Assembly (NCBI RefSeq): GCF_004027225.2 | Contig: NC_044301.2 | Coordinates: 21,380,668-21,444,667 of the forward strand | Source: Strigops habroptila | Taxonomy: Eukaryota; Chordata; Aves; Psittaciformes; Psittacidae | DNA length: 64,000 nucleotides | Direction of reading: 5' to 3' | Shown here: positions 24,620 to 44,354 of the stretch, piece after piece | Layout: every line of letters begins with the position of its first letter | Numbering within the stretch: the first letter of the stretch is position 1 | The notes under the pieces: generated by a model | Databases searched by the model: none | What the model was told of the DNA's origin: nothing | The model's input: only the letters and a program-made list of their open reading frames with translations | Position numbers and translations under genes: made by a program

Positions 24620-25325
24620 CTCCTCATTGGTAATACCACATAGGTCCTCAACCGGTTTAAATCTCCTAACAATTTTTGTACATCATTTAAGGTGTGGATC
24701 TCTGTCCGGAGTTCCACCTTTTGAGGTCGAACAACTGTTTTGTCGATTTCCCAGCCAAGATACTTCCATACTTCTGTTTTTTGTATTTTTTCAGGGGCCA
24801 ATTGTAGCCCGTTTGACTGCAACACATTTTGTAATTCAACAATCAATTGGTCTCCATTCAGCTGTTTTCCGGCTATCAAAATGTCATCCATGTAATGATA
24901 AATAAGCAAGTCTGGATGCGCTTCACGTACCGGAGTAAGTGCCCAGGCCACGTAAACCTGGCACATGGTTGGTGAATTTTTCATGCCCTGCGGTAACACT
25001 ACCCAGTGGTACCTTTTCATAGGTTCACTTTTGTTTACGCTCGGTACAGAAAAAGCGAATTTCTGATAATCTTCTGGATGCAGGGGAATGGTAAAAAAGC
25101 AATCTTTTAAATCGATAATTAAAATGTCCCAATTTTTCGGAATCATATTTGGGGAGGGTAATCCAGGCTGTAACGCCCCCATATCCTCCATGACCTCATT
25201 AATTTTTCTCAGATCATGCAATAGGCGCCATTTGCCACTTCTCTTTGGAGTTGTAAAAATTGGGGTATTCCAAGGGCTTGTGGTCGGTTTAATGTGACCT
25301 TTCTCTAATTGCTCCTGTCCCTTTC
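24607..25325 (-). pseudogene. ALV-like reverse transcriptase palm/fingers
   Basis: The minus-strand frame contains GKWRLLHDLRKIN (about 25200-25240), LIIDLKDCFFTIPLHPED (first catalytic Asp) and the intact YHYMDDILIAG active-site box (about 24880-24912). The frame starts after a junction with a foreign gag fragment at about 25310-25325; the N-terminal reverse transcriptase codons and the protease are missing. Confidence 0.9.
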
Positions 25326-27865: not shown

Positions 27866-28526
27866 GAAAGGGATGTTAGATTCTATATACAAACAAGCCT
27901 GTGGACAGTGCTGAAATCTGTAGCTGTATTCCACAGGCCTCTCAAAAAACCATGAATGATGATGAAGTCAGGCAGAAGAGAGGAAAAGCCAGCACAGCTC
28001 TGGGGGATTAAAGCAGAATGTCTGGGATGAAAGAGATACCTGACTTCAAATAAAAACAAACATGTACCATGCAGTTGCCATCGTTCTTCCACAGGGCTGT
28101 GAATCAGGGATGCCTGTCCTGGGTTCAGCCGTAACAGGTTTTTTTCTCCTTCTTAGTAGCTGGTGCAGTGCTGTGTTTTCGACTTTAGCCTGAGAACAAT
28201 GCTGATAGCACACCGATGGTTTTAGTTGTTGCTAAGTAATGTTTACTCCGATCAAGGACTTTTTCAGACTCATGCTCTGCCAGTAATGAGGGGCACAGGA
28301 AGCCAGGAGGAAGCAGAGACAGGACACCTGACCCAAACTAGCCAAAGGGGTATTCCATACCACAGCACATCACGCCCAGTATATAAACTGGGGGGAGTTA
28401 CCCGGAAGGCCCAGATCACTGCTCAGATTGGGCTGGGTATCATGAGGCAGGTGGTGAGCAACTGTATTCTCTCCCCTTGTTATTTCCCTTATCGTTATTA
28501 TTTTCCCCGAGGCTGGACAGTCATGA

Positions 28527-28826
28527 GTGGCAGAGTGTGTGGGATCGTATGGGCTGTTAAAAACTACACTGAGAGCAATGGGTGGTGGGACTTTCAAACA
28601 CTGGGATACACATTTACCAAAAGCCACCTGGTTGGTCAACAGTAGGGGATCTGCCAACAGGGCTGGCCCAGCCCAATCAGAACTTTTACCTTCCGTAGAG
28701 GGGGATAAAGTTCCTGTGGTGCACATAAAGAATTTGTTGGGGAAGACAGTCTGGGTTATTCCTGCTTCGGGTAATGGCAAACCCACTTGTGGGGTTGCTT
28801 TTGCTCAGGATATGCTTGGTGGGTAA
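28527..28826 (+). pseudogene. ERVL-type integrase C-terminal fragment
   Basis: The frame contains GLLKTTLRAMGGGTFKHWDT and VPVVHIKNLLGKTVWVIPAS, nearly identical to the integrase end of the provirus at 37692-43139. The catalytic core is not present. Confidence 0.88.
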
Positions 28827-29199
28827 TGCAGGAAGATGGGGAACTCCAATGTGTACCTCAAGAGGATTTAATTTTGGGGGAAAACAGCCAATGAACTCAA
28901 TTGTACGCTGTTGCCTGCTCTATAACACTTTTATAGCCCACCAGCTAGATATCTTCAGGTCACCAGCAACTGACCCTGACTTCCCTCCGATCATCACCCC
29001 AACAAAGAATGAATTTTGAGGAAACCAGACAAGCTCAGCAGTGACCAGATGAGTTTGGCGGTGTTGTCAGCATGCAACAATCCAACACTACACATCGTCC
29101 CTCCTGCCCTGAAGGACTGTTACAAGAGACGGAGCCTGACATCATGGACTGGATGAATTCAGTAACTTTATAGGGATTGGTCCATGAACTAAGGAATGA

Positions 29200-29243
29200 T
29201 ATCTCTCTCTCTTTGTGTGTGTGTATATATGTGTATATATATA
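29200..29243 (+). repeat. (CT)n-(GT)n-(AT)n simple repeat in ERVL-type 3' region
   Basis: A compound microsatellite located between integrase and the 3' LTR. The same compound repeat is present at the equivalent place in the minus-strand copy (38337-38416), so it is part of the element. Confidence 0.9.
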
Positions 29244-29321
29244 TGAGACAAAAAGCAATGGTGCATTTTAAGATATGGGATCTGAGCATGACGCGAATGG
29301 TATGGAATAAGGGGTGGATAC

Positions 29322-29895
29322 TGTCCTGGGTTCAGCTGTAGCCATCTTTTTTTCTCCTTCTTAGAGCTGGTGCAGTGCTGTGTTTTCGACTTTAGTCTGA
29401 GAACAACACTGACAACATACCGGTGCTTTTAGTTGTTGCTAAGTAATGTTTACTCTGACCAAGGACTTTTTCAGTCTCATGCTCTGCCAGGGAGGAGGGG
29501 CACAGGAAGCCGGGAGGAAGCAGAGACAGGACACCTGACCCAAACTAGCCAAAGGGGTATTCCATACCACGGCATGTCATGCCCAGTATATAAACTGGGG
29601 GGAGTTACCCGGAAGGCCTAGATCACTGCTCGTGTAGGGCTGGGTATCGGTCGGCAGGTGGTGAGCAATTGTATCCTCTCCCCTTGTTATTTCTCTTATC
29701 ATTATTATTATTGGTGGTGGTAGTAGTAATTTTGTATTATACCTTAGTTACTGGACTGCTCTTATCTCAACCCGTGGGAGTTACATTCTTCCGATTCTCC
29801 TCCCCATCCCTCCAGGAGTGGGGGAGGGGAAGAAGCAGGGGAGTGAGTGAGCGGCTGCGTGGTTCTGAGTTACCGGCTGGGCTTAAACCACAACA
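29322..29895 (+). mobile_element. 3' LTR of deleted ERVL-type provirus
   Basis: 574 bp from TGTCCTGGGTTCAGCTGTAG to AAACCACAACA. A TATA-like AGTATATAAACTGG lies near 29585-29598. Confidence 0.92.
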
Positions 29896-36609: not shown

Positions 36610-37230
36610 TGTCCTGGGTTCAGCTGGAACAGTTATTTTCCTCCTTCCTAATAGCTGGTGCAGTGCTGCATTTGGGCTTTAGTCTGATAACAATGCTGAT
36701 AACACACCAGTGTTTTAGTTGTTGCGAAGTAATACTTAATCTAATCAAGGACTTTTCAGTCTCTCATGCTCCGCCAGTGAGGAGGGGCATGAGAAGCCAG
36801 AAAGAAGCAGAGACAGGACACCTGACCCAAACTAGCCAAAGGGATATTCCATACCACAGCATGTCATGCCCAGTATAGAAAGTGGAGGGAGTCACCCGGA
36901 AGAGCAGATCCCTGCTTGGGTTGGGTTGGGTATCGGTCAGCAGGTGGTGAGCAATTGTATTGTGCATCACTTGTGTTTATTTTTTTTTTTCCTTTCCCTT
37001 TTAGTTTTATATTCTCTCCCCTTGTTATTTCCCTTATCAGTATTATTGGTGGTAGGAGTAGTAGTTTTGTATTATGCCTTAGTTACTGGACTGTTCTTAT
37101 CTCAACCCATGGGAGTTAGATTGTTTTGGTTCTCCTCCCCATCCCTCCAGGAGCAGGGGGAGGAAGAAGGGGGGGGAGGGAGCGAGCGGCTGTGTGGTTC
37201 TGAGTTACTGGCTAGATTTAAACCATGACA
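36610..37230 (+). mobile_element. ERVL-type 5' LTR, + arm of inverted pair
   Basis: 621 bp from TGTCCTGGG (36610) to AAACCATGACA (37230). Followed by primer site and leader in the normal order, so this is a 5' LTR whose provirus is cut off at about 37505. Confidence 0.92.
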
Positions 37231-37238
37231 GTCCTTCT

Positions 37239-37505
37239 TGGCACCCAATGTGGGGCATGAAGGCTTGAGATAACAACAGATCTGACCAGAGTGTGTCTAA
37301 CTGTGATAAGCATTCATTATTTTGGATTAATAGTCACTCATAACAATGTTGATTTATTTGCTCTCGGAGTTGTTGCACTTGGTCTCAGAGTTTCAGCATG
37401 TCGTACCTTACTTGCAGCCAGTATTTGCTGTTTTAGTGTTTATCAGCTTAAGGGCCTGGGCTAAGGTTCTCATTTCATTGTACTTTATGATAAGTAACCC
37501 ATCCT
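37239..37505 (+). mobile_element. ERVL-type primer site and leader, truncated
   Basis: Primer site TGGCACCCAATGTGGGGC (37239-37256) differs by two transitions from the foamy-virus/tRNA-Lys1,2 type site TGGCGCCCAACGTGGGGC. The leader to about 37505 matches, in inverted orientation, the leader of the minus-strand provirus (about 42960-42715). It stops before the coding region. Confidence 0.85.
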
Positions 37506-37691
37506 AGGGAGCGTGAGTGACAAGGAGCGGGGCAAATGGGGCATGGCATGGCAGTTGGCAGGCAGGGCGAACGGGATGGTTAGCACTCGCCTCAGGACCA
37601 GGGCCCAGTCTGGGAGCTCTGCTCTGTCTGACCTGGTAGTCACCAGCATAGTCACCCAGACAAAGCTGGTGAAAGGGGGGGGCTGCAGTGC
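37506..37691. other. Spacer between the inverted ERVL-type copies
   Basis: 186 bp of GC-rich sequence matching neither ERV arm as far as I can see. Origin unknown. Confidence 0.45.
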
Positions 37692-38258
37692 TGTCGTAGT
37701 TTAAGCCCAGCCAGTAACTTGGAACCATGCAGTCGCTCGCTCACTTCCTGCATTCTTCCTCCCCCCACTCCTGGAGGGATGGGGAGGATAATCGGAAGAA
37801 TGTAACTCCCACGGGTTGAGATAAGAACAGTCCCATAACTAAAGTATAACATAAAACCACTACTATTACCACCAATAATAATAATGATAAGGGAAATGAG
37901 AAGAGGAGGGGATACAATTGCTCACCACCTGCTGACTGATAGCCAGCCTGACCTGAGCAGTGATCTGGGCCTTCTGGGTAACTCCCCCCGGTTTATATAC
38001 TGAGCATGTTGTGCAATGGTATGGAATACCCCTTTGGCTAGTTTGGGTCAGGTGTCCTGTCTCTGCTTCCTCCCGGCTTCCCCTCCTCCCTGGCAGAGCA
38101 TGAGACTGAGAAAGTCCTTGGTTGGAATAAACATTACTTAGCAACAAGTAAAAACACCAGTGTTATCAGTGTTGTTCCCAGGATGAAAGTCAAAACCACA
38201 GCACTGCACCAGCTACTAAGAAGGAGAAGAAAAGATGCCTACATCTGAACCCAGGACA
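37692..38258 (-). mobile_element. 3' LTR of minus-strand ERVL-type provirus
   Basis: 567 bp. Minus-strand start TGTCCTGGGTTCAGATGTAG, end AAACTACGACA. The sequence to its right (GTATCCACCCCTTATTCCAT) is the reverse complement of the family's polypurine tract. Confidence 0.93.
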
Positions 38259-38336: not shown

Positions 38337-38351
38337 ATCTCTCTCTCTCTC

Positions 38352-38387
<36 letters not shown>

Positions 38388-38420
38388 CAGATATGCACCC
38401 ACACACAAAGAGAGAGATAG
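38337..38420 (-). repeat. Compound microsatellite in the ERVL-type 3' region
   Basis: (CT)n(GT)n(AT)n followed by a CA/GA-rich part, so the whole is roughly self-complementary. Same position as in the copy at 29200. Confidence 0.9.
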
Positions 38421-39674: not shown

Positions 39675-40469
39675 TCAGTGGCCCGACATTGCTGTTATCT
39701 TGTTGATCACATCTGTGGGGATCTGGCGACGTCCATCTTGCCGTTTTATTCCCCAAAATTGAATCTCCTGTGCAGGTCCCTTGACCTTATTCCGTTTTAT
39801 GGCAAAACCAGCCTTCAGCAGGATTTGGATTATCTTCCTCCCTTTTTCAAAAACTTCTGCCACTGTATCACCCCACACGATGATGTCATCAATGTATTGC
39901 AGGTGTTCTGGAGCTTGCCCCTGTTCCAGTGCAGTCTGGATCAATCCATGGCAGATGGTAGGGCTGTGTTTCCACCCCTGGGGCAGTCGATTCCAAGTGT
40001 ACTGGACTCCTTTCCAAGTAAAAGCGAACTGTGGCCTGCATTCTGCTGCCAAAGGGATTGAGAAAAATGCATTGGCAATATCAGTTGTGGCATCCCCCTT
40101 GGCTGCCTTTGACTCCAGTTCATACTGAAGTTCTAGCATGTCCTGTACGGCAGCACTCAGTGGTGGTGTGACTTCGTTCAGGCCGTGATAGTTTCCTCTT
40201 GGTCTCCACTCTCCATTAGACTTTAGCACTGGCCATATGGGGCTATTAAAGGGTGAGCGGGTCCTGCTGATCACTCCTTGGCTCTCCAGTCTACGGATCA
40301 GCTTATGGATGGGAATCAGGGAGTCTCGGTTGGTGCGATATTGCCGCCGGTGCACTGTTGTGGTTGCGATTGGCACTTGTTGTTCTTCGACCTTCAGCAA
40401 CCCCACAACAGAAGGATCCTCTGAGAGACCAGGCAAGGTGGACAGCTGCTTCATTTCCTCCATCTCCAA
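39675..40469 (-). pseudogene. ERVL-type reverse transcriptase (264 codons open)
   Basis: The minus-strand frame shows the finger/palm motifs VISRTRSPFNSPIWPVLKSN, KGDATTDIANAFFSIPLA (first Asp), LPQGWKHSPTICH, and the active-site box YIDDIIVWGD. It ends at the thumb (INKITAMSGH), and the integrase frame begins only 22 bp later, so connection and RNase H are deleted. In the box the second residue is Ile (YIDD). Confidence 0.92.
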
Positions 40470-41659: not shown

Positions 41660-41918
41660 CCGGGTGACAATGTGCTCCCCTGGAAGACGGCTGAAATCTT
41701 TTCACATATTTTGCAGCTCGGTCAAGGTCCAGGATTGAGAAGTCACTTCTTCCTCTTCCTCTGTTTCTTGTATTAATAACTCTTGTTCAGATGCTGTTCC
41801 CTGTACTACGTGCATTGGGTCTTCATTTTCCTTCACTGCAGAGGTTGCTCTTTATGTCTCTCATTTGCTTTTCCCTTTGCTTACAGGGGCAACCGCTATT
41901 GGCACGGATTGGTCCTTT

Positions 41919-42038
41919 GGTTTAGCTGCAGCGTCTGTCACTGTGGTTGGTTTAGCTGCATTGTCTGCCACTAGGGTTGGAGCGCCTGCAGTGTCTGTTG
42001 TTGAGGTTGAGTAGCTGTATTGTCTGTTGCTTTGCCAT
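41919..42038 (-). repeat. 4 x 30-bp tandem repeat in ERVL-type gag
   Basis: Four consecutive 30-bp units, starting at 41919, 41949, 41979 and 42009 (first + strand unit begins GGTTTAGCTGCAGCGTCTGT). On the coding strand each is 10 codons of Gln/Thr/Leu/Asn-rich sequence (QTLQALQP-type). Confidence 0.82.
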
Positions 42039-42201: not shown

Positions 42202-42866
42202 CTAAAGAACTGGAGTGGCCAACTGGCTTAGGTACTTGCCCATACTGTTCCACACACCCTGCCACTCATGACTGTCCAGCCTTGGGGAAGGTCTCTTGGT
42301 GATATTCTTGGATAGTTGTTTAACCTTAGAGAAGACCCGAGCCTGACCCTGCTTAACTTTTGAGATCAGACAAGATCGGGCACTCTCAGGGTGGTATGGC
42401 CATAGGTAAACCACAAGCAGCATATTCAGCAACATGCTGGTTCCCAAGAAAAGCAGCAGGATGGTTTCAAGGGTACTCAAAGGATTTTCAAAACCTTTAG
42501 ATTTCTCAAATGCTGCTGTAAATAGCCTGGTGGGGAGCAGAGGGTGTGAGGCACTGTCTCCTTCATAGGTTGACCCTTCGGGGGGAGGGGGCAAGTGGTG
42601 TAGAGGTCTAATTGTTGACAATTCCCATTACATGCCTCCCAAAGTACAGATGTGATGGCCATACTGAGAACACACCAGATCAGTTTCATGATCAATAATT
42701 CTATTGTATCACAAGCCATTATCATAAAGTACAATGAAACGAGAACCTTAGCCCAGGCCCCAAAGCCAATAAACACTAAAACAGCAAATACTGGCTGCAA
42801 GTAAGGTACGACATGCTGTAACTCTGAGACCAAGCACAGCAACTCCGAGAGCAAATAAATAAACAT
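42202..42866 (-). pseudogene. ERVL-type hydrophobic 5' coding region
   Basis: Two overlapping minus-strand frames (42866-42477 and 42621-42202), probably one frame broken by a shift near 42600. The first has at least two hydrophobic segments (YLQPVFAVLVFIGFGAWAKV and LLIMKLIWCVLSMAITSVLW). The second has a third (ETILLLFLGTSMLLNMLLVV, residues 52-71), followed directly by the 5S-derived stretch (residues 73-94) and a basic tail (SKVKQLSKNITKR). It sits where gag normally starts, but a multi-pass N terminus is not typical for retroviral Gag. Function unknown. Confidence 0.7.
42341..42405 (-). other. 5S rRNA-derived segment inside the ERVL-type coding region
   Basis: Read on the minus strand, this stretch corresponds to about nucleotides 3-67 of vertebrate 5S rRNA. 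Intact blocks include GGCCATACCACCCTGA, GCCCGATCTTGTCTGATCTC and TTAAGCAGGGTC. By eye I count about 9 differences in 63 aligned positions, most of them C/T or G/A changes at former CpG sites. It contains the region of the internal A box but not the C box, so it is not a working 5S gene. It lies in sense orientation and is read in frame as LWPYHPESARSCLISKVKQG and two more codons. Confidence 0.88.
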
Positions 42867-42961: not shown

Positions 42962-42979
42962 GCCCCACGTTGGGCGCCA
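42962..42979 (-). other. Primer-binding site, foamy-virus/tRNA-Lys1,2 type
   Basis: Minus-strand TGGCGCCCAACGTGGGGC, an exact match to the tRNA-Lys1,2-type primer site known from foamy and some betaretroviruses, 8 bp after the LTR end. Confidence 0.9.
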
Positions 42980-42987
42980 CAAAGGAC

Positions 42988-43139
42988 TGTTGTGGTTTAA
43001 GGCCAGCCGGTAACTCAGAACCATGCAGCTGCTTGCTCCCTCCCCCCCTTCTTCCTCCCCCTTCTCCTGGAGGGATGGGGAGGAGAATTGAAAGAAGAAA
43101 GGAAGGAGAAAAATTCCTGCTACAGCTGAACCCAGGATA
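42988..43139 (-). mobile_element. Internally deleted 5' LTR of minus-strand ERVL-type provirus
   Basis: 152 bp keeping only the outer ends: TATCCTGGGTTCAGCTGTAG at the start and the purine-rich end with TTAAACCACAACA. About 400 bp of the middle, including promoter and polyadenylation parts, is missing. Confidence 0.85.
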
Positions 43140-44354
43140 ATATAGGAATCTAAAAACGCTGAGGTGAAGAGAGTAAAATAGCAAGTGAAGGAGCACTTAC
43201 AAATTTCAGCTTTCCAGTGTGAACCACCAGCATTTTGCACTTTCACTGTAATACTGTCAGATCAGCTTCACCCACTCTTCCCTACCTTCTGTGAGTTATT
43301 TTGCCTAAATCTTTCCAAGGCCTCTCCTCCTCAAAGGCAGAGCTTCTGTCACCAGCTGCTGGGACTGATCCAGATACATGTTGACCCAACGTTATATTTT
43401 TGTGCAGGCTGATGGTGATGTGTCCAGCCCTTGCACAGATAGTTTTTGTTCAGTTCTTTCAATTTAAAATGACCCGATTTCAGTTGCGTGTAGCAGTTTA
43501 TGCTAGGTGAGCATCCCTTCTAGCAGTGTTGTATATTCTTTTGTTTATCTTCAGGGTTTGTTGCTGCTCTTGCAGCTCTTTGGGAAGATTGGCAGTGAGT
43601 ACCTTTCAGCTAAGATGGGATGCTGGATCCATTCCTGCTGATAGCCAGGTGTGCTGGGATGTTCATTATTTGTCTTGGGTCCACTATGTTTGATGTGCTA
43701 CAATAACAAGCAAGTTTAGTATCATATTACTTGATTATTTTTCATTAATATTTCAATTCTGAATGTTTTGTGCAGTTCCAAGCAGTACCCTGTCAACATC
43801 TCATGTTCCCCAGATTGAAAGTTTGGCATTGTTGGCTATCAACCTAATGGTTTGGTGCTGTTCTGCTCAGTATAGCTTCATGAAATGCAATTTTCTGAAC
43901 TGTCAGGATAACTGGCATGAAGATCCAAGTTAGAAACATCTGATCTCAGATAAGAGATTATAAGGATAGGATAATTGTATAAAGGGCACTTGAAGAAATT
44001 TGACAAAATACTTGTTGTAAATCTGTCTCTCCCTATGTGTCCTTGATTTCAGTAGTAGAATTTGTGAAGCCTGGGCTCATCTAGTTAGTTTAGTTGAGGT
44101 ATTTTGAGGGAAGGTATGAGATTTGGAAATTTATTGTAAAGAGTGTCTAAATGCGGGTGAAGGTTTCTATGTGGAAATGAGTGTGTGTGACTCAGCTGAT
44201 CATTAGTATATTGTTATTTTGTTTGTGTGTTGATCTTGTTTATATTTCATAACAACAGTGATCCTGAAACACATGTTCCTGTCTTCCTGTATGGGGGGGG
44301 GAGGGGAAAGGTGTTTAGGGGAGATGTTGGGTATAAATTGAGCTACTTCTAGCA

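Follow-up and report, generated by a model that had tools for sequence, protein, structure and literature searches.

SINEs headed by 5S rRNA sequence (SINE3 and AmnSINE1) are known in vertebrates, where the 5S part forms the promoter head of a short non-coding element. In plants, the LTR element Cassandra carries part of 5S rRNA in its LTR, which supplies the 5S internal promoter (available excerpts of PMC10853983). Retroviruses also encounter structural host RNAs during packaging: 5S rRNA has been reported in MLV virions, and 7SL RNA was patched into an experimental retroviral recombinant (Hajjar and Linial 1993, as cited in PMC4997597; available excerpts). An insertion of 28S rRNA has been described in the haemagglutinin of avian influenza (available excerpts of PMC3673898).

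The locus described here shares something with each of these systems. It resembles Cassandra in being an LTR element that carries 5S-derived sequence, and SINE3 and AmnSINE1 in being vertebrate mobile DNA with such sequence. Unlike that of Cassandra, as far as the available text on that element goes, the 5S piece is internal, occupies a coding frame, is missing the promoter part at the 3′ end and is drifting away from 5S; unlike that of the SINEs, it has gag frame on both sides. As in the 7SL recombinant, a packaged Pol III host RNA appears to have been joined into retroviral DNA, an event ascribed to template switching. The 7SL case, as excerpted, was experimental, whereas here the insert sits in frame in the coding region of a many-copy family that includes a recent integration. 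As in influenza, a piece of host rRNA became part of a viral protein gene; the excerpts on that case concern another virus class, another rRNA and an outbreak strain, whereas here an old family trait is found in the Gag region of a retrovirus.

A literature search with subscription journals mostly outside its scope did not turn up any animal retrovirus reported to contain 5S sequence, and the available excerpts of PMC6381159, PMC9883250 and PMC4054807 hold nothing bearing on this subject. Capture of host RNA by retroviruses is known; as far as can be told, what is new is that the captured sequence became fixed in a coding gene throughout a family. To our knowledge, a structural RNA copied into a viral coding gene is otherwise known from the experimental recombinant and from influenza.

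A 5S rRNA-derived segment in an endogenous retrovirus

The window, by which we mean the whole 64-kb stretch of DNA analyzed, contains a minus-strand provirus with a 3′ LTR, an internally deleted 5′ LTR, a primer-binding-site-like sequence and a piece of reverse transcriptase (RT). Its features are as follows.

42988..43141, minus strand: 5′ LTR, internally deleted (43102-43141 and 42988-43096 match the two LTR ends)
42962..42979, minus strand: primer-binding-site-like sequence, 8 nt after the LTR, read directly; presumably of the tRNA-Lys type
42202..42621, minus strand: open frame with the segment, 139 codons; listed start TTG, first ATG at 42435
42406..42465 (approximate), minus strand: hydrophobic, membrane-like stretch directly before the 5S piece (Kyte-Doolittle)
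42341..42405, minus strand: 5S rRNA-derived segment (5S nt 3-67, 56/65 identity, present in all copies read, junctions read)
42286..42339, minus strand: basic stretch directly after the 5S piece (charge count)
39675..40469, minus strand: RT piece (Pfam RVT_1, E 3.6e-19)
37691..38258, minus strand: 3′ LTR of the same provirus (LTR comparison)

With its LTR pair, primer-binding site and RT, the element is an endogenous retrovirus, which we take to belong to class III (ERVL-type). The segment aligns locally and without gaps to nt 3-67 of vertebrate 5S rRNA, with 56 of 65 bases identical (86%). An earlier, sequence-only reading of this locus had given the coordinates, an identity of about 86% and the reading frame correctly, the segment beginning at residue 73 of the open frame. 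Its alignment score of 85 compares with a maximum of 34 across 30 Markov-shuffled 64-kb windows and with 22 for the next best match in the window, so that the identity stands well above chance, the first point on which that reading had asked to be checked. Of the nine differences from 5S, all but one are transitions; CpG positions account for six, five of which represent CpG decay; over the matched stretch, 5S has seven CpG dinucleotides and the segment one. The concentration of differences at former CpG sites, noted from the letters, is thus confirmed.

A chance or convergent likeness of a retroviral gag stretch to 5S would have to account for this score, which the alignment statistics place beyond such an explanation, and for the 49 of 51 non-CpG 5S bases retained in two other copies; we found no point in its support and give it practically no weight. 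The 5S origin of the segment is real. The sole strong 5S match in the window is internal, between the LTRs and not inside them. The parallel with Cassandra drawn earlier is therefore a loose one: both are LTR elements with 5S sequence, but in Cassandra, in the excerpts available, the 5S part is the LTR promoter.

The covariance model of Rfam sees the segment less clearly. Against 5S_rRNA it obtains 30.4 bits, below the gathering score of 38, and a scan of the window at that score returned no 5S_rRNA match. Three of 20 other similarity-picked copies scanned reach the threshold (41.0, 40.6 and 38.1 bits); none of the five copies of the unselected sample described below does. The gag segments that reach it are the following.

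L029, 311-403: gag segment at the Rfam 5S_rRNA gathering score
L023, 251-351: the same
L010, 298-406: the same

Several other elements lie in or around the provirus. A second element of the same family (28115-29895, plus strand) has a large internal deletion, by which a truncated 5′ LTR joins gag just downstream of the 5S segment, followed by late pol; it lacks the segment region because of this deletion. A same-family LTR with about 260 bp of 5′ leader occupies 36610-37493 on the plus strand and stops ahead of the gag frame. Inside the provirus, 38342-38417 is a TG/TA-rich, hairpin-like microsatellite with sub-threshold scores against several miRNA families, and a related repeat is present in the second element at 29202-29244. 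The gag region has a tandem repeat of a 30-nt unit at 41917-41980 (2.1 copies). An RT-like sequence at 24868-25302 on the minus strand, with 34% protein identity to the RT of the provirus, belongs to another retroelement.

Presence across the family

Copies were collected from the assembly of the window, a presumed bird genome of 1.149 Gb, with a 259-nt query around the segment, and the best 40 of 1777 candidates were scored. Each of these 40, including the window copy, matches across almost the entire query and has the segment, with 49-58 of its 65 bases as in 5S. Since the query itself held the segment, this set is biased, and an unselected sample was therefore taken: 10-kb stretches, 20 in all, set on a fixed grid over the contig of the window, from 1.0 to 32.5 Mb in steps of 1.5 Mb, two of them 3 Mb, for a total of 200 kb. 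It yielded five copies with both flanks, all five of which hold the 65-nt segment; they retain 49, 40, 40, 39 and 49 of the 65 bases of 5S, against a shuffle maximum of 28-32.

In total, the segment is present in 45 of 45 copies read at the site and is exactly 65 nt long in 44 of them. The 45 copies sit at separate places in the genome, although two pairs are near-identical and may be duplications. No empty site occurs among the copies read. RT matches in three of the sampled stretches (L059, L052 and L050) have no gag 5′ flank, the copy being broken off before the site, deleted at the site or running off the stretch, and are not empty sites; the deletion in L052 resembles that of the second element in the window. 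A further RT match, in L044, is found at the border of the sampled stretch and is likewise not an empty site. No relative without the segment was found among the copies read and the viral contigs searched; the latter contained no relative of the 139-aa open frame or of the RT and no match to a pattern of 5S plus flank.

Absence of the segment from most family copies, as for a private late insertion, had been named as fatal to the idea of a captured 5S piece, and the 45 of 45 copies that hold it remove this objection. Host RNA is joined inside the viral genome and inherited in copies that differ in LTR age, as in a retrovirus with transduced host RNA. The locus represents a family-wide, old, in-frame capture of 5S in the 5′ part of a gag-like gene. 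The expectation that the family state would be closer to intact 5S holds slightly, the best copies having 57-58 of 65 bases against 56 in the window and 49 of 51 non-CpG bases against 48.

The copies are unevenly distributed: 37 of the best 40 matches fall on the 37.4-Mb contig of the window, which makes up 3.3% of the assembly. The pattern is as on an ERV-rich W chromosome (compared from the available excerpts of PMC8310711) and is a candidate likeness only.

Coding frame and gag context

In the window, the open frame at 42202-42621 (minus strand) encodes 139 aa; its listed start is TTG, and its first ATG lies only 30 nt ahead of the segment. The same frame extends for hundreds of codons in other copies. 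Over 165 codons in 40 copies, the frame of the segment accumulates 54 stops in sum, and not one codon carries a stop in at least half of the copies. The other two frames accumulate 233 and 452 stops over the same codons and copies, with 4 and 11 stop codons common to at least half. One sampled copy is open for 791 codons in this frame and, past a single stop, continues in the same frame, as expected for gag followed by pol.

Searches for known domains were negative: Pfam returned nothing above threshold on the gag pieces, PHROGs had no match to one gag piece, and a protein search with the 139-aa open frame gave 18 candidates, all with E above 0.01. With Pfam negative, gag is assigned by position, which would place the segment near the start of a gag-like frame. 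Candidate starts of Gag differ between copies: an ATG at -30 from the segment is present in 31 of 45 copies, and another copy is open from an ATG at -489.

Two of the three sense frames of 5S run into stops early; the third, which does not, is the one used here. On one side of the segment, the 19-aa window just before it is hydrophobic (above 1.6 on the Kyte-Doolittle scale) in 37 of 40 copies; on the other, the following 18 aa have a mean net charge of +4.8 (40 copies). The arrangement read from the window alone, a 5S piece in sense orientation and in frame inside the 5′ coding region, after a membrane segment and before a basic tail, recurs across the family, with no family-wide stop in the frame. 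We infer that the segment is translated and has a role at the membrane-facing end of Gag.

Age and divergence from 5S

In a midpoint-rooted tree of the 45 copies, those with 39-40 bases of 5S are nested inside those with 49-58. The nested copies have short branches, and the one LTR pair measured among them differs by 0.5%. LTR divergence reaches 10.5% in an intermediate copy and 13.4% in the second element of the window, or roughly 18-34 million years at a neutral rate of 2-3 x 10^-9 per site and year; the LTR pair of the window provirus differs by 20%, over only 109 bp. Taken together, the divergences of 10.5% and 13.4% and that of 0.5% indicate that the segment was carried for a long time and reached recent insertions. 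The youngest sampled copies have kept length and frame and only 39-40 of the 65 bases of 5S. The segment is free of stops in four of the five sampled copies, and its amino acids turn over strongly between subfamilies.

Junctions and route of capture

The position of 5S nt 2 is occupied by C in all 45 copies, as in 5S. The two bases ahead of the match are GC in 17 copies, AC in 27 and TC in one. The 17 GC copies, in which nt 1 fits the G of 5S, include every one of the 14 members of a basal branch in the midpoint-rooted tree; nt 1 is A in 27 of the 45 copies, and a junction at nt 1 is not proven. A chicken small RNA starts gcctacggccat and reads gcctacggccatcccaccc (available excerpts of PMC9876980). 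This read, which we take to be 5S, fits a bird 5S beginning GCC. If bird 5S starts in this way, nt 1 of 5S may mark the 5′ junction, the position at which an enzyme running off the end of the RNA would have stopped copying. Should GC be the first state, for which the tree is no proof, capture would have begun at the first base of 5S.

At the 3′ junction, nt 67 is the last base of the match: base 68 departs from 5S in all of 40 copies, although 33 and 40 of them share bases 70 and 71, respectively, with 5S. The remaining 3′ portion of 5S is absent from the segment in this set. Within the segment, 5S nt 23-25 differ from the reference in 38, 40 and 39 of 40 copies, the reference being a vertebrate 5S and not that of the host itself. 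No flanking direct repeat of at least 5 nt was found in the 45 copies, and 4-nt repeats occur in four; an old duplication could have decayed.

These junctions bear on how the piece arrived. A 5S pseudogene or 5S-headed SINE might have jumped into an ancestral provirus through the LINE machinery, after which the changed provirus spread, and both kinds of sequence exist in vertebrates. Such an insertion would be recognized by a target-site duplication and a kept 3′ end, neither of which is seen: direct repeats of at least 5 nt are lacking, though decay may have erased them, and so is the 3′ portion of 5S, from which LINE copying would begin, the bases past nt 67 not continuing 5S. As both observations speak against it, we consider a LINE-type insertion very unlikely. 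The pattern of junctions and repeats fits template switching from packaged 5S better.

We infer packaged 5S RNA as the donor and template switching as the route. During an ancestral reverse transcription, the enzyme would have switched from the viral RNA to a packaged host 5S rRNA, copied some 65-67 nt of it as far as the 5′ end or close to it, and then rejoined the viral template within the 5′ part of gag. The copied piece would have landed in the only open sense frame of 5S, between the hydrophobic and basic stretches of the N-terminal Gag region, and stayed part of Gag while the family multiplied. Its later evolution would have been that of a fast-changing protein-coding sequence, in which 5S RNA fold and promoter had no part. 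We regard this sequence of events, capture of packaged 5S into gag by template switching followed by retention and evolution as protein, as probable.

RNA or protein

The segment could in principle act as RNA, either by mimicking 5S in the binding of TFIIIA or ribosomal protein L5, or by contributing to a Pol III promoter. Its sense orientation would suit such a role, as would the presence of both strands of helices II and III within nt 3-67 and the three of 20 scanned copies still at the Rfam gathering score. The alignment of copies points the other way. Covariation on the 5S helices is absent among 37 of the 40 copies (L016, L018 and L034 left out), with paired cells at 78.2%, as compared with 78.6% in shuffles, and double changes not in excess. 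The best fold of the window segment differs from the 5S fold. The 5S promoter consists of an A box, an intermediate element and a C box; since the match ends at nt 67 in 40 copies, the intermediate element and C box are missing, and no complete internal promoter is present. The youngest copies, with 39-40 of 65 bases, have lost most likeness to 5S, and the five sampled copies all score below the Rfam threshold. A function as RNA or as promoter is unlikely, and this particular reading strikes us as highly improbable; the 5S-like role in binding L5 or TFIIIA or in packaging or export, proposed from the sequence, finds no support. The lack of covariation, together with young copies that keep length and frame but not 5S bases, favors a protein segment over a 5S mimic or Pol III promoter.

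Selection was assessed through counts of shared and rare variants and pairwise pN/pS, with the other two frames as controls; L018 and L034, near-duplicates of L017 and L033, were dropped from the variant-count and 38-copy analyses. Over the same pairs, pN/pS is 0.45 in RT, 1.55 in the gag 5′ region, 1.89 in the segment and 1.05 in the part after it (Fisher test on rounded counts, p = 0.006, the pairs not being independent). The value of 0.45 for RT in the same copies indicates that the method can detect constraint. Other comparisons place the segment at 0.93 (young versus intermediate copies) and 1.43 (38 copies), and those between groups range from 0.93 to 3.82, the last value (intermediate versus basal) coming from few synonymous sites. 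Among shared variants, the coding frame gives 1.52 against 1.03 and 0.71 in the control frames, and a second comparison gives 1.21 against 0.94 and 0.74. CpG decay at codon positions 1-2 raises pN in the segment. Its conservation (0.882) is close to that of the flanks (0.880 and 0.918). Purifying selection on the frame, which the sequence-only reading had asked about, is thus not visible, pN/pS being mostly 0.9-1.9 against 0.45 for RT. We read these values as rapid protein change, relaxed or diversifying; positive selection is not proven.

Such values could also describe a passive passenger, captured once, tolerated and translated but neither needed nor selected, and preserved solely by the need to keep the surrounding frame open. 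A pN/pS near or above 1 in and around the segment, the strong turnover of amino acids between subfamilies and a conservation equal to that of the flanks all agree with this. Against it, 44 of 45 copies have a segment of exactly 65 nt, even though deletions that preserve the frame could be tolerated; the RT of the same copies is constrained, so the method is sensitive; and an excess of amino-acid change could equally mean positive selection. On balance, we hold a mere passenger to be unlikely, with more in its favor than the LINE or RNA explanations have.

A more far-reaching interpretation, for which the chances are close to even, is of a captured piece that became protein. Some 22 residues near the N-terminus of Gag would derive from 5S rRNA, fixed before the family spread; their frame would have been kept over millions of years into very recent proviruses, while they diversified as protein under host pressure and the traces of 5S function disappeared. 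Of the original interpretation, the sense orientation, the frame, the place in the 5′ coding region and the spread with the family endure, and the RNA role and purifying selection do not.

Implications

Because some copies reach the Rfam threshold for 5S, pieces of retroviral gag may be miscounted as 5S genes when such genomes are annotated automatically. The family itself looks like the fossil record of a retrovirus that copied a structural RNA into a coding gene and kept the copy. With copies from about 0.5% to above 10% LTR divergence, the turning of a noncoding RNA into protein can be followed.
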